From: Halomonas sp. Y3 | Lineage (GTDB): Bacteria; Pseudomonadota; Gammaproteobacteria; Pseudomonadales; Halomonadaceae | Length of the DNA stretch: 64,000 nucleotides | Direction: 5' to 3' | Assembly: GCF_024137965.1 (NCBI RefSeq) | Contig: NZ_CP099975.1 | Span: forward strand, 1,054,001 to 1,118,000 | Shown here: positions 55,322 through 61,743 of the stretch, piece after piece | How the letters are laid out: each line of letters opens with the position of its first letter | Numbering within the stretch: position 1 is the first letter of the stretch | Translations under genes and position numbers: made by a program | Notes under the pieces: model-generated | Seen by the model: only the letters and a program-made list of their open reading frames with translations | Told to the model about the DNA's origin: nothing | Databases searched by the model: none

Positions 55322-56020
55322 TCACGAGACATCCCACCCCGCGGCCCATACCGAGGGCTCCAGGCTGAGCCGGCCCACCACCTTCTCCACCAGGGAGTCG
55401 TTGCGGCCGCTGGACATAAGCCGGGCGCTGACCACCACCGCCTGGCGCTCCTCCAGGTTCTCGCTCTCCAGGCGCTGCAGCTGCATGGCGTCGCCGAGCA
55501 GGCCCTGCAGCATCAGGGCGCGGATATGCGCCTCTTCGCTCTCCCGGCAGGTCACGCTGATCTCATAGGTCCAGTCCACCTCGTCCGGGCTTGCCTCCAG
55601 CGGCTGGCGGTTGATCAGCACCGACAGCGGCCGCAGCAGGATATTCACGCCGAGAATGCACAGCGTGACCATGATGGCGGCGGCATAGAAGTCGGCGCCG
55701 GCCAGCACGCCGATGGCGGCGGAGCACCAGAGGGTGGCGGCGGTATTGAGGCCGCGAATGTTGGCGCCCTCCTTCATGATCACCCCGGCGCCCAGAAAGC
55801 CGATGCCCGAGACCACCTGAGCCGCCATGCGGGTGGGGCTGATCTCGTCGGCCACCATCATCGACATCAGGGTGAAGCTGGCTGCCCCCAGCGAGACCAG
55901 GGCGTTGGTGCGCAGGCCCGCCATGCGCTGGCGCCACTGGCGCTCTATGCCCACCAGGGCGCCCAGCACGGCGGCCAGGGCCAGCGGTAGCATCAGCTGA
56001 AGCTGCATCATCAGTGTCAT
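55322..56020 (-). CDS. MgtC/SapB-family membrane protein
   Basis: 232 aa. Four or five N-terminal helices with the MgtC hallmark LGALVGIERQWRQRMAGLRT (conserved Glu and Arg) and MTNALVSLGAASF-like block, then a C-terminal ACT-like cytoplasmic domain (ISVTCRESEEAHIRALML). MgtC relatives aid growth at low Mg2+ by acting on F-ATPase or K+ balance. It follows two mgtE genes on the same strand by 26 bp, forming a magnesium cluster. Confidence 0.93.
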   Translation of the reverse strand: MTLMMQLQLMLPLALAAVLGALVGIERQWRQRMAGLRTNALVSLGAASFTLMSMMVADEISPTRMAAQVVSGIGFLGAGVIMKEGANIRGLNTAATLWCSAAIGVLAGADFYAAAIMVTLCILGVNILLRPLSVLINRQPLEASPDEVDWTYEISVTCRESEEAHIRALMLQGLLGDAMQLQRLESENLEERQAVVVSARLMSSGRNDSLVEKVVGRLSLEPSVWAAGWDVS

Positions 56021-56046: not shown

Positions 56047-57402
56047 TCAGGCCGGCAGACCCAGCATGGCCGTGGCCAGGGCAAAATAGAGCACCACGCC
56101 GACGATGTCGGCGAGGGAGGTCACCAGCGGGGCCGAGGCGGTGGCGGGGTCCAGGCCCAGCCGCTCGAGCCCGAGCGGCAGCAGCATGCCGATGAGGCTG
56201 CCCATCAGCACCACCAGCACCATGCTGATGGCCACCACGCTGGCGATCTCGGGCCCGGCGCGCAGGGTGCCGATCCCCAGGATGCAGAGCGCCATGGTGA
56301 GGCCCAGCGCCAGGGCCACGGCGACCTCGCGGCCCAGCAGTCGGGCCCAGTCGCTTCGGCGCACCTCACCGGTGGCCATGCCGCGGACCATCAGGGTGGC
56401 GGCCTGGGCGCCGGCGTTGCCGCTGCTGTCCACCAGCAGGGGCAGGAAGAAGACCAGGGCGATATAGGCCTCGATGGTGGCCTCGAAGTGGGCGATACCG
56501 GCGCCGGCGAAGATGTTGGCGAACACCAGCAGCACCAGCCAGCCCACCCGCTTGCGGTAGAGCTCGAAGGGCCTGGCCGTGCGCACCGAGCCCTCCAGCC
56601 TGGCGATGGACATGCCCTTGTGCATGTCCTCGGTGGCCTCCTCCTCGGCCACGGTCATGGCGTCGTCGTAGGTGACGATACCCACCAGGCGCCCGTCTGC
56701 CTCCACCACCGGCAGGGCCAGCAGGTCGTAGCGCGAGATCATCTCCGCCACGCCTTCCTGGGGCGCGGCGACCTCCAACGTCAGGACGTCGCGGGTCAGG
56801 TAGCCGGCGAGGGGGGCGCTTGGCCTGGCGAGGATCAGCTTGCGCAGGGAGATGGTGCCGACCAGCTGCCCCGACTCGTCGAGGGCATAGACCTGGTAGA
56901 TGGTCTCGGCCTCATCGGAGTGCTGCTGCAGCACCTCCAGCACCTCCTGAACGGTGGCGGTCTCGGGCACCGCGACGCACTGAGGCGTCATCAGCGCGCC
57001 TGCGGTGCCCTCCGGGTAGCTCGCCAGGCGCTCGAGCTCGCGCTGCTCTTCCGCCGTCAGGTAGCGCAGCAGGCCCTGGCGACGCCCCGCCTCGACCTGC
57101 CTGAAGAGATCGGCCCGGGCGCCCGGTGCGAGGCTCTCCAGCAGGTCGCCGAGCTCCTCCTCGGTCATCAGCTCGGCGAGGCGTCGCTGGCGCTCCGGCG
57201 GCAGCTCGGTAAAGGTGGCCGCCCGGGCCGCGGCGCCGAGAAAGCTCAGCAGCGCCAGGGCGGCATAGGGCATCTCGTCGCGGCAGATCTCGGCCAGGTC
57301 GACGGGATGCAGCTGGCTCACGCAGGCGCGAATGGCCTCGGCATCGCTGGCCCGCATGGCCTGCTGGAGCCGCTCCTGAGGGCTTGCCTTGTGCGCTGTC
57401 AT
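56047..57402 (-). CDS. mgtE: Magnesium transporter MgtE (second copy)
   Basis: 451 aa. N-terminal superhelical domain (MgtE_N, residues 10-125), a CBS pair (ALMTPQCVAVPETATVQEVL and GYLTRDVLTLEVAAPQEGV), the plug helix region, and five C-terminal helices with LPLLVDSSGNAGAQAATLMV, the Mg2+-selectivity segment. It forms a homodimeric Mg2+ channel gated by cytoplasmic Mg2+. About half identical by eye to the next mgtE; the two begin in tandem 8 bp apart. Confidence 0.95.
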   Translation of the reverse strand: MTAHKASPQERLQQAMRASDAEAIRACVSQLHPVDLAEICRDEMPYAALALLSFLGAAARAATFTELPPERQRRLAELMTEEELGDLLESLAPGARADLFRQVEAGRRQGLLRYLTAEEQRELERLASYPEGTAGALMTPQCVAVPETATVQEVLEVLQQHSDEAETIYQVYALDESGQLVGTISLRKLILARPSAPLAGYLTRDVLTLEVAAPQEGVAEMISRYDLLALPVVEADGRLVGIVTYDDAMTVAEEEATEDMHKGMSIARLEGSVRTARPFELYRKRVGWLVLLVFANIFAGAGIAHFEATIEAYIALVFFLPLLVDSSGNAGAQAATLMVRGMATGEVRRSDWARLLGREVAVALALGLTMALCILGIGTLRAGPEIASVVAISMVLVVLMGSLIGMLLPLGLERLGLDPATASAPLVTSLADIVGVVLYFALATAMLGLPA

Positions 57403-57409
57403 GACGGCC

Positions 57410-58759
57410 TCAGCCCGGCAGGCCCAGCACCGCGGTAGCGATGGCGAAGTAGATCAGCACGCCCACGCCGTCGGCGATGGAGGTCACCAGCGGGGCGGAG
57501 GCGGTGGCCGGGTCGAAGCGCAGGCGCTGCAGCAGGAAGGGCAGCAGCATGCCGATCAGGCTGCCCATGATCACGATCAGCACCATGCTCATGGCCACCA
57601 CCATGGCGATCTCGGTGCCGGCGCGGAAGATCCCCACCACGGAAACGGCCAGCGCCATGGTCAGGCCGAGGCCGATGGCGACCGCTACCTCGCGGCCCAG
57701 CAGCTTGGCCCAGTCTCGGGTTCGCACGTCGCCGGTGGCCATGCCGCGTACCATCAGGGTCGCCGCCTGGGAGCCGGCGTTGCCGCCGCTGTCCACCAGC
57801 AGGGGCAGGAAGAAGACCAGGGCGATATAGGCCTCGATGGTCTCCTCGAAGTAGGCGATGCCGGCGCCGGAGAAGATGTTGGCGAAGACCAGCAGCACCA
57901 GCCAGACGATGCGCTTGCGGTAGAGATCGAACAGGCTGGCGTTGCGCAGGCTGCCCTCGATCTTGCCCACCGAGACACCCTTGTGCATGTCCTCGGTGGC
58001 CTCCTCCTCGGCCACGTCCATGGCGTCGTCATAGGTCACGATGCCCACCAGGCGGTCGCCGCCGTTGGTCACCGGCAGGGCCATCAGGTCATAGCGCGAG
58101 ATCAGCTTGGCCACCTCTTCCTGAGGGGTCTCCACCTTGGCCACCACCAGCTCCTCGGTCATCAGGCTCGCCAGGGTGTCCTTGGGGTTGGCCAGGATCA
58201 TCTCGCGCAGCGACAGGGTGCCCTGCAGGCGGCCCTCGTCGTCCACGCAGTAGATCTGGTAGATGGTCTCGGCGTTGGGGCCGGTGCGGCGCACCTTCTC
58301 CAGCGCCGTCGCCACGTCCGCCTCGGCGGGCACGGCCACGTACTCGGAGGTCATCAGGGCCCCGGCGGTGCCTTCCTCGTAGCTGGCCAGCTTGCGGATG
58401 TCCTCGCGCTCGGCGTGGGCCAGGCGGCGCAGCAGGCCCTGCTGGCGGCCTTCATCGAGCATGTTGAAGAGGTCGGCACGCTCGTCGGCATTCATGAAGT
58501 GCATCAGCTCGGCGAGGGTGGCGTCCTCCATCTCGGCGGCAAGCGCACTCTGGGTCTCCTCCTCCAGGTAGCCGAAGGCGCTGGCCCGCTGCTCCATGGG
58601 CAGGTAGTCCAGCAGGGAGACGGTGGTGTCCTCCTGCTCGTGCTGGATGAACTCGGCCAGGTCGGCGAGCTGCATCTCGGCGACCAGGTGGCGGATGGCG
58701 TCGGTGTCCTGACGCTGAAGGGCGCTGCGCAGGGAGGCAGCGAGAACGGCATAGCTCAT
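57410..58759 (-). CDS. mgtE: Magnesium transporter MgtE (first copy, with leader)
   Basis: 449 aa from ATG 58759. Same domain order as the downstream copy: MgtE_N (ADLAEFIQHEQEDTTVSLLD), CBS pair (TSEYVAVPAEADVATALEKV, SLMTEELVVAKVETPQEEVA), and helices with LPLLVDSGGNAGSQAATLMV. The ATG is preceded by AAGGAG, which is buried in the stem of the hairpin at 58765-58802. Upstream in-frame codons read through that hairpin and are excluded. It is the first gene of the Mg cluster, whose control region includes a 32-codon leader ORF. Confidence 0.96.
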   Translation of the reverse strand: MSYAVLAASLRSALQRQDTDAIRHLVAEMQLADLAEFIQHEQEDTTVSLLDYLPMEQRASAFGYLEEETQSALAAEMEDATLAELMHFMNADERADLFNMLDEGRQQGLLRRLAHAEREDIRKLASYEEGTAGALMTSEYVAVPAEADVATALEKVRRTGPNAETIYQIYCVDDEGRLQGTLSLREMILANPKDTLASLMTEELVVAKVETPQEEVAKLISRYDLMALPVTNGGDRLVGIVTYDDAMDVAEEEATEDMHKGVSVGKIEGSLRNASLFDLYRKRIVWLVLLVFANIFSGAGIAYFEETIEAYIALVFFLPLLVDSGGNAGSQAATLMVRGMATGDVRTRDWAKLLGREVAVAIGLGLTMALAVSVVGIFRAGTEIAMVVAMSMVLIVIMGSLIGMLLPFLLQRLRFDPATASAPLVTSIADGVGVLIYFAIATAVLGLPG

Positions 58760-58764
58760 GGTAT

Positions 58765-58802
58765 GGCTCCTTGGCGCGCGTCGCTGTGGGCGCGCAGGAG
58801 CC
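58765..58802 (-). promoter_or_regulatory. Hairpin sequestering the mgtE Shine-Dalgarno
   Basis: On the minus strand GGCTCCT and AGGAGCC (outer arms, 58802-58796 and 58771-58765) and GCGCGC/GCGCGC (58795-58790 and 58779-58774) pair around a 10-nt loop, with only TG bulged on one side. The mgtE ribosome site AAGGAG (58772-58767) is inside the 3' arm. It ends 6 nt upstream of the ATG. This is the layout of a translational off-switch. Confidence 0.7.
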
Positions 58803-58807
58803 ACGGC

Positions 58808-58906
58808 CTAGCGGATAGGCAGGGGCAGGCTCCGGCGCACCACGACGTTCGACGCGGCGCGTTCGATCAGATTATCGGTCGTGTAGTGGCGACTCGGAGG
58901 TTCCAT
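58808..58906 (-). CDS. Leader peptide ORF upstream of mgtE (32 aa)
   Basis: ATG 58906 to TAG 58808, with GAGGAA at ribosome-site spacing. The peptide starts MEPPSRHYTTDNLIERAASN and ends SLPLPIR. N-terminal acidic-then-proline residues and a Pro-rich end recall MgtL-type leaders, in which ribosome pausing or loss under Mg2+ limitation controls the downstream transporter. The stop lies 5 nt before the hairpin that hides the mgtE ribosome site, so translation of the leader would affect its folding. Confidence 0.55.
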   Translation of the reverse strand: MEPPSRHYTTDNLIERAASNVVVRRSLPLPIR

Positions 58907-59052
58907 TGATTCCTCAAAGGGGTTTCGCTGCCATGCAGCAGCAGGGCGCATATTAGCGGGCGACTTGACCCAGGTAAAGTTTCATGGAGAGCCCTGGCGC
59001 GACGGCATCGTCGGTGAGTGCCTGCGCGCTTGTCGATCGACCCGCCCAGCAT

Positions 59053-60943: not shown

Positions 60944-61342
60944 GTGCAAGAGAGCCTGGGAGTCTTCAATCTGCTGCTGGTGGCCGTGGGCGGAGCCCTG
61001 GGCGGCATGGGCCGCCTGGCGGTCACCAACCTCTTCAGCCACTGGCTGGGGACGCGCTTTCCCTGGGGCACCCTGGCGGTCAATCTGAGCGGCGCCCTGG
61101 TGGCGGGCTGGTGGGCCGCACGGCTGGGGATTCCCACCACCCTGGATCTCTCCTCGGCCTGGCTGGCGCTGGTGGTGGGGCTGCTGGGCGGCTACACCAC
61201 CGTCTCCTCCTTCAGCCTGCAGACCCTGACCCTCTGGCAGAGCGGCCATCCGCGCCGCGCCGTGGCCAACGTGCTGGCCACCTGCCTGGCGGGCCTGGCC
61301 ATGGCGGCGCTCGGCTGGTGGCTGGCGGGAGGTGGCGCATGA
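60944..61342 (+). CDS. crcB: Fluoride channel CrcB/Fluc, first subunit
   Basis: 132 aa from GTG 60944 (GGGAGCC upstream). Four helices with the Fluc signature GGALGGMGRLAVTNLFSHWL, FPWGTLAVNLSGALVAGWW and GGYTTVSSFSLQTLTL (TTFSSF-type phenylalanine box). Exports F- by channel flow. It overlaps the second crcB by ATGA; two-gene crcB pairs form hetero-oligomers. No fluoride riboswitch is recognisable in the 199-bp 5' region, which holds nothing else I can support. Confidence 0.93.
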   Translation: MQESLGVFNLLLVAVGGALGGMGRLAVTNLFSHWLGTRFPWGTLAVNLSGALVAGWWAARLGIPTTLDLSSAWLALVVGLLGGYTTVSSFSLQTLTLWQSGHPRRAVANVLATCLAGLAMAALGWWLAGGGA

Positions 61343-61743
61343 GTCGGCGCTACTCTGCTCTGGTGCCCTACGCGGCGGTGGGGCTCGGCAGCGCTCTGGG
61401 TAGCCTGCTGCGCTATCTGGTCTCGCTGAGCTCTCTGACGCTTTTCGGCTCGCTCTTCCCCTGGGGAACCCTGGCGGTCAATGTCGTCGGCTCCTGGCTG
61501 ATCGCCTGGCTGGCCACCCTGGGCGGACGCTACGCCCACGGCCGCGTGGCGCGCTGGCAGCCCTTTCTGGTGGCCGGCTTCTGCGGCGGCTTTACCACCT
61601 TCTCGCTGTTCAGCCTCGAGACCCTGCACCTGCTCACCCTCGGCCGCCCCTGGCTGGCCGCGGCCTACGTGTCCATAAGCCTGCCGCTCTGGTTCGCCGC
61701 CGCCTGGCACGGGCAGCGGGTGGCTCATCGAATGGCGCGCTAG
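61339..61743 (+). CDS. crcB: Fluoride channel CrcB/Fluc, second subunit
   Basis: 134 aa from ATG 61339 (ATGA overlap with the first crcB). Helices and motifs match: VGLGSALGSLLRYLVSLSSL, FPWGTLAVNVVGSWLIAW and CGGFTTFSLFSLETLHLL. Likely heterodimer partner, antiparallel to the first subunit. It converges with the DUF2805 gene, the stop codons overlapping by 4 bp. Confidence 0.93.
   Translation: MSRRYSALVPYAAVGLGSALGSLLRYLVSLSSLTLFGSLFPWGTLAVNVVGSWLIAWLATLGGRYAHGRVARWQPFLVAGFCGGFTTFSLFSLETLHLLTLGRPWLAAAYVSISLPLWFAAAWHGQRVAHRMAR

Follow-up and report, generated by a model that had tools for sequence, protein, structure and literature searches.

Upstream of a row of three genes, mgtE1, mgtE2, and an mgtC-like gene, we find what is probably a translational attenuator, a reading to which we give a probability of roughly 0.6. 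Finished translation of a short leader open reading frame (ORF) would keep mgtE1 off, while early abortion of that translation would turn it on. The gene content (mgtE-mgtE-mgtC-like) and the acidic, proline-containing start of most leaders point to low cytoplasmic Mg2+ as the most likely signal. At the level of sequence, the candidate element consists of a leader ORF that is conserved in its start and its place, a hairpin (segments 3 and 4; 3:4) at the mgtE1 Shine-Dalgarno (SD) sequence, and a strand inside the leader ORF (segment 2) whose pairing with segment 3 would exclude the hairpin. The first-pass annotation had proposed a leader-peptide/hairpin switch on the basis of the ORF and the stem; this proposal is supported here, and is strengthened by the 2:3 anti-sequestor, which that annotation lacked.

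The element lies in a 64,000-nucleotide stretch of DNA (here called the window) from a genome of 4.1 Mb (G000), and its parts are listed in Table 1. The nearest named relatives of MgtE1 belong to Billgrantia and Halomonas, with 96% identity to Billgrantia campisalis (best 78 loci kept). An in-frame GTG at 58804 could lengthen MgtE1 by 15 codons across the hairpin. ATG 58759 is the likely start, because it has an SD sequence and because relatives have 44 to 69 nt between the leader stop and the ATG of mgtE, often not a multiple of three. The promoter-like boxes fall under the threshold of a consensus promoter scan, which found none. A small stem-loop (GCUGC..GGCAGC, window 58942-58927, minus strand) follows directly 3' of these boxes, in relatives too when compared by eye, and is possibly the mRNA 5' end. 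Transcription is predicted to begin near 58944. No intrinsic terminator was found in the leader region. The gammaproteobacterial genomes G580, G781, G553, G794, G809, and G696 likewise have two adjoining mgtE genes on the same strand. A search for plasmid copies of mgtE gave six weak matches, none covering over 80% of the query. Elsewhere in the window, two tandem genes of the CrcB fluoride channel family (60944-61342 and 61342-61743, plus strand; both Pfam CRCB) carry no fluoride riboswitch call, since no Rfam family reaches its gathering score in the window.

Table 1. Parts of the candidate attenuator and neighboring genes, in window coordinates
Feature	Position	Strand	Evidence
Leader ORF, 32 codons, MEPPSRHYTTDNLIERAASNVVVRRSLPLPIR (ATG 58906, TAG 58808)	58808..58906	-	Sequence; counterparts in 33 other loci
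Leader SD, GAGGA	58911..58915	-	GAGG kept in 13 Halomonadaceae and Pseudomonas sequences, also in L140
N-terminal motif MEPPSR	58889..58906	-	Identical in 12/12 Halomonadaceae leaders
Segment 2, predicted anti-sequestor strand within leader ORF, GUGCGC-C-GGAGCC	58828..58840	-	12 bp with segment 3, one mismatch; z -3.3, p 0.008 vs shuffles
Segment 3, hairpin 5' arm	58790..58804	-	Folding
Segment 4, hairpin 3' arm, holds mgtE1 SD	58763..58779	-	Folding
GGAG of mgtE1 SD	58767..58770	-	4/4 nt paired, wholly inside 3' arm
mgtE1, Mg2+ channel	57410..58759	-	Pfam MgtE_N, CBS, MgtE; TIGR00400 386 bits (cut-off 232.75)
mgtE2, second MgtE, starts 7 nt 3' of mgtE1	56047..57402	-	Pfam; TIGR00400 323.9 bits
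mgtC-like gene, third in row	55322..56020	-	PF02308 141 bits; best NCBIfam MgtC PRK15385, 210 bits, below cut-off 255
Promoter-like boxes, TTTACC-17-TAATAT (putative)	58950..58978	-	By eye; similar boxes at the equivalent place in several relatives, by eye

Relatives of the element were sought by searching MgtE1 in 90 genomes of the genus and in a wider genome collection (best 78 loci kept) and reading the upstream regions. In total, 34 loci have a short leader ORF (18 to 33 codons) and a hairpin at the mgtE SD sequence, always in one order of parts. Besides Halomonadaceae and two Pseudomonas records, they represent two other families of the same order and a further family of the class. The ORF with its ribosome site, as first annotated, is confirmed in the window, and both ORF and stem are kept beyond the genus; their absence from relatives had been named beforehand as evidence against the switch. 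A covariance model (R1), trained on 11 Halomonadaceae leaders, detects the element in 9/90 genus genomes at E values below 1e-23, the remaining genus matches lying above E 0.04, and recovers three members outside its training set, namely, L140 (E 2e-25) and the Pseudomonas loci L059 and L060 (E 5e-6 and 2e-5). Across 390 genomes of the order, R1 has a strong match in the source genome only. When MgtE served as the guide, five of the nine other genomes in the order sample with a strong MgtE match proved to have a leader of the same plan. Family-level samples gave leaders in 7/9 genomes with an MgtE match for family f43 (46 searched), where no clear SD sequence precedes the leader, and in 10/11 for family f37 (116 searched). 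R1 did not match the f37 and f43 leaders, although their genomes are among the 390. Because R1 missed the five genomes of the order sample, these leaders are linked to those of Halomonadaceae by gene, position, start motif, and architecture.

In the class sample (369 genomes, 20 with an MgtE match), the leader is clear in L162 and doubtful in L198; the latter (MSSDSR...) is the most distant of the set and is counted among the 34. A leader with a TTG start was found in L071, a metagenome-assembled genome (MAG) contig labelled Rhodobacteraceae. Among the best 78 loci, 12 have the leader, in two (L064 and L087) the gene start is missing, and the upstream sequence was read for 20 (including L071, which has a leader) and for seven more; the rest, mostly Lachnospiraceae, were screened only by a script demanding proline at residue 3 or 4, by which leaders of other kinds would be missed. 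No such leader was seen in the upstream regions of the close mgtE genes L056 and L057 (Vreelandella), L150, L169, and L170, at the separately located paralogues L061, L062, L063, L069, and L075, or before those more distant MgtE genes whose upstream sequence was read, including L186 and L192; the mgtE start was not located in L205. By eye, L056 and L057 have a different hairpin (UCGCCU:AGGCGA) at the mgtE SD sequence, with no M[DE]xxSR leader. In a Methylophaga MAG (L066), the roughly 100 nt before mgtE contain, again by eye, a seven-codon ORF (MNKPPPR) together with a hairpin of 11 bp, perhaps another, proline-based leader. Used as a direct query against 97 genomes, the leader peptide returned, besides its own match, nothing better than E 0.25, because it is too short and variable for such a search.

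The hairpin at the mgtE1 SD sequence is well supported by folding. It was first described as a 13-bp stem beginning 5 nt after the ORF; the stem itself stands, and when two basal pairs are counted it measures 15 bp (9 + 6, with a 2-nt bulge and a basal G-U) and begins 3 nt past the leader stop. Its folding energy is -26.7 kcal/mol versus -15.7 +/- 2.5 for 200 dinucleotide shuffles (z -4.33; 0/200 as good). The 3' arm holds the mgtE SD sequence, as had been claimed, and the predicted open probability of this sequence, computed separately, is 0.0001; the lowest value among 43 guessed SD-bearing starts in the window is 0.001. Of 20 clade representatives, 17 have two or more of the four GGAG bases in pairs; in the other three (L165, L166, and L153) the stem is located chiefly next to GGAG. 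An additional small hairpin lies between the leader stop and the SD hairpin in L176, L177, L174, and L054.

The arms of the hairpin differ among clades while their pairing is kept. Within Halomonadaceae alone (11 sequences), pairs change on one side only; with L140 and L059 added, two pairs change on both sides, a level reached by 8/500 shuffles. Counted from GGAG, positions +4 to +8 of the 3' arm are paired in 15 to 20 of the 20 representatives, and each position shows between three and six standard pair types. Because these pairs are taken from minimum free energy (MFE) folds, the independent test is an arm swap. Native arms sum to -464 kcal/mol, versus -292 +/- 22 kcal/mol when arms are swapped between clades (0/20,000 permutations; 20 representatives), and in 10/20 cases the native pairing is stronger than any swapped one.

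Read by eye across the 34 loci, the end of the leader ORF resembles the hairpin's 3' arm and can therefore pair with its 5' arm. Since segment 2 is complementary to segment 3, pairing 2:3, which would leave the SD sequence free, and pairing 3:4, which would bury it, are mutually exclusive. Complementarity 2:3 lies above the shuffle mean in 31/33 leaders and reaches p < 0.05 in 15/33. Over the 20 representatives, z is negative in 19 and p is below 0.05 in 8 (window included), with a Stouffer value of -8.0 and a Fisher value of 2.3e-9; the pairing is individually nonsignificant in the other 12 and absent by the shuffle test in L071 (z +0.2). Four control pairings were null by the same Fisher statistic: the 60 nt 5' of the leader with the 5' arm (0.81), the leader end with the 3' arm (0.43), the leader start with the 5' arm (0.99), and mgtE codons with the 5' arm (0.76). 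In the arm-swap test, native 2:3 pairs sum to -392 versus -321 +/- 14 (0/20,000 permutations), and 7/20 natives beat every swapped partner. The pairing tests leave out L198, whose hairpin could not be parsed, and, among the 20 representatives, use L165 for its sister L154; a swap-test run with L154, which is mis-parsed, gave -471 versus -292 for 3:4 and -401 versus -328 for 2:3. A classical attenuator with a default 1:2 stem was rejected: CUCCG:CGGAG is present in the window (z -2.2), but over the 20 representatives the Stouffer value is -0.01, with 2/20 below 0.05 (the window among them).

These parts suggest how the attenuator would work. Ribosomes that reach the leader stop would cover segment 2, so that 3:4 forms and mgtE is off. 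Ribosomes that stall or abort within the first codons (M-E-P-P-S-R) would leave segment 2 free; 2:3 would then form before segment 4 is made, and the open SD sequence would allow mgtE to be translated. The sensor would be these first codons, whose acidic residue and prolines are of the kind reported to destabilize ribosomes at low Mg2+ in mgtL and mgtQ. When transcripts that stop just short of segment 4 are folded in silico, segment 3 pairs with upstream sequence in 19/20 representatives with a ribosome at codon 6, in 19/20 with no ribosome, and in 1/20 with a ribosome at the stop. On these folds, full leader translation is predicted to favor 3:4 and silence, and early abort or no translation to favor 2:3 and expression. 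At equilibrium the full leader favors 3:4 in most cases, also when a ribosome occupies the first codons (14 sequences): with the ribosome at codons 1 to 6, the SD sequence is open at 13 to 25% in the window and at 0 to 6% in L050, L054, L140, L058, and others. The balance in the window is close, with 2:3 being the MFE structure when the RNA ends at mgtE codon 2. Given this equilibrium, the switch must be set during transcription, and this requirement genuinely weakens the model.

The same folding bears on translational coupling, in which a ribosome finishing the leader would melt the base of the hairpin, expose the mgtE SD sequence, and turn expression on, with early abort at low Mg2+ turning it off. 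With a ribosome at the last codon or the stop, the SD sequence is indeed predicted to be partly open in 9/14 sequences (8 to 67%; 38 and 16% in the window), but it stays 0% open in the other five (L054, L140, L055, L065, and L083), and the spacing between leader stop and 5' arm varies across loci from 0 to 27 nt. Coupling also leaves the 2:3 complementarity unexplained and would have an odd sign for a Mg2+ importer. We therefore consider it unlikely.

Conservation of the leader peptide is concentrated at its N terminus. The 12 Halomonadaceae leaders are identical at residues 1 to 6, with pairwise identity falling to 0.44 for residues 7 to 12 and 0.37 for residues 13 to 27; in the 20 clade representatives, identity is 0.61 for residues 1 to 6, 0.13 for residues 7 to 12, and 0.09 for residues 13 to 19. 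Because the 34 leaders were gathered with a pattern on the first residues, their level of N-terminal identity is partly selection; the 12 Halomonadaceae leaders were found by MgtE and the model alone, and their identity is free of it. Across all 34 loci, residue 2 is acidic in 33 (33/34 start M[DE]), proline stands at residue 3 or 4 in 30, with four leaders lacking it there, serine stands at residue 4 or 5 in every leader, and Ser-Arg is present in 29. In the source genome, a start pattern of the M[DE]xxSR type has three matches, the other two of which are not of this kind by sequence. Later parts of the leader are variable, and on this ground the proline-rich C terminus (LPLPIR) was rejected as the sensor; both Pseudomonas leaders lack proline in the C-terminal part. 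The L140 leader seemingly lacks one base near codon 9 and continues in another frame from there, and that of L054 ends early.

The Ser-Arg codons vary (AGT/AGC; CGN/AGG/AGA) while the residues persist, and Ser-Arg keeps the reading frame of the ATG although the spacing differs; the peptide therefore matters. This observation stands against a metal-binding or other riboswitch-like RNA with an incidental ORF, as the Thioalkalivibrio mgtE motif was classed. That motif, with SD and AUG at the stem base (PMC11109978), and the conservation of N-terminal synonymous sites (Ser AGT in 27/29) speak for such an RNA, but no Rfam family matches (one chance match at E 3.2), and we regard it as very unlikely. 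A separate RNA-level candidate, a GUCG..CGAC hairpin at codons 5 to 11 in Halomonadaceae, was rejected: by eye, it is unformed in L140 and both Pseudomonas sequences, where the start residues are still similar.

Synonymous sites are unusually fixed at the leader Ser-Arg, with AGT in 27/29 and CGA in 19/29, each making up about 10% of the serine or arginine codons, respectively, in an approximate gene set of the window. Slow codons or an RNA-level role may thus add to the peptide effect. The uncommon codons and the MENNSR start of SpeFL, an ornithine-responsive E. coli leader, would also suit a leader that responds, by way of slow AGT-CGA codons near its start or of the nascent chain, to another signal (such as charged tRNA, EF-P or ABC-F activity, or polyamines), yet the likeness to SpeFL ends after six residues and the mgtE-mgtE-mgtC gene content points to Mg2+; we consider another signal improbable. 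Within the preferred reading, an attenuator responding to Mg2+, the conservation of Ser-Arg is not explained by ribosome destabilization. One rather speculative idea treats M-[DE]-x-x-Ser-Arg as a portable code for early abortion: a module within the first six codons, acting through the nascent chain and through slow codons (AGT, then CGA, AGA, or AGG), at which ribosomes would drop off as Mg2+ falls. Such a module would have evolved apart from mgtL and mgtQ and would control MgtE across Gammaproteobacteria, perhaps also acting elsewhere, as in E. coli speFL.

The Mg2+ channel MgtE is very widespread in bacteria, and mgtE is among the genes controlled by the M-box. To our knowledge, little is known of the control of MgtE expression outside M-box riboswitches. 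Among the matches listed from the open-access literature, as far as their accessible text goes, we found no report of a leader peptide for MgtE and one RNA element of mgtE in gammaproteobacteria, Thioalkalivibrio SRC-65-1 (PMC11109978). The suggestion in the first-pass annotation that such control is undescribed for MgtE fits this literature, although the mechanism is known from mgtQ-mgtB (PMC8092293) and an mgtE-linked RNA motif has been published. As far as the searched open-access literature reaches, a translational attenuator of the mgtQ kind is new for MgtE. If the model is correct, control by leader peptides that read Mg2+, known for MgtA/MgtB and CorA, would extend to a third transporter family, MgtE, here at translation. 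The fixed start with its free-running remainder would also provide a natural series for nascent sequences that destabilize ribosomes.

Several known systems share features with this element. The speFL-speF leader of E. coli has 34 codons (L179:2719-2823, minus strand) and starts M-E-x-x-S-R, as here, possibly by chance; past the first six residues, no likeness to our leaders was seen by eye in the E. coli sequence. SpeFL is reported to stall just before its stop codon with ornithine and to affect Rho (PMC7815308). The M-box riboswitch, described as controlling Mg2+ transporter genes (PMC12810186), is an aptamer RNA, whereas the window has no Rfam match, including no covariance-model match to the Rfam Mg2+ riboswitches, M-box among them. 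SRC-65-1, a riboswitch candidate reported only in Thioalkalivibrio, is likewise gammaproteobacterial and upstream of mgtE; it differs in being described without an ORF in the portion available (PMC11109978), a comparison made by description.

In the Mg2+-responsive leaders mgtL-mgtA and corL-corA, the polarity is the one predicted here, efficient leader translation repressing the Mg2+ transporter gene (PMC11282234 and PMC11552253). The EPDP start of MgtL is reported to cause ribosome dissociation when Mg2+ is low, and a toeprint appears at Pro3 if EttA is present (PMC11282234). According to the same papers, mgtL and corL act by Rho-dependent termination, whereas here the hairpin covers the SD sequence, and their transporter families and leader sequences differ from those described here. 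The starts MEPP, MDLP, and MDPS resemble those of MgtL and mgtQ, as given there, in composition only. The mgtQ ORF of Salmonella, in the mgtC-mgtB intergenic region, has an acidic start (Asp2, Pro4, and Glu5), and Asp2 and Glu5 are reported to lower leader translation and raise MgtB translation through 2:3 versus 3:4 (PMC8092293). Like the candidate element here, that system has a short ORF with an acidic start; poor leader translation there releases the ribosome-binding site of a Mg2+ transporter, with control at the level of translation, as is predicted for mgtE1. It differs in that mgtQ has 8 codons, lies inside the operon before mgtB, and has a segment 1:2, whereas the leaders here have 18 to 33 codons, form a 5' leader before the MgtE channel, start M[DE]xxSR, and show no 1:2 pairing over the representatives. 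By analogy, and as a likeness of mechanism and not a claim of homology, the element would work like mgtQ: its parts and predicted polarity agree with those of mgtQ-mgtB, a system tested experimentally in Salmonella (PMC8092293).
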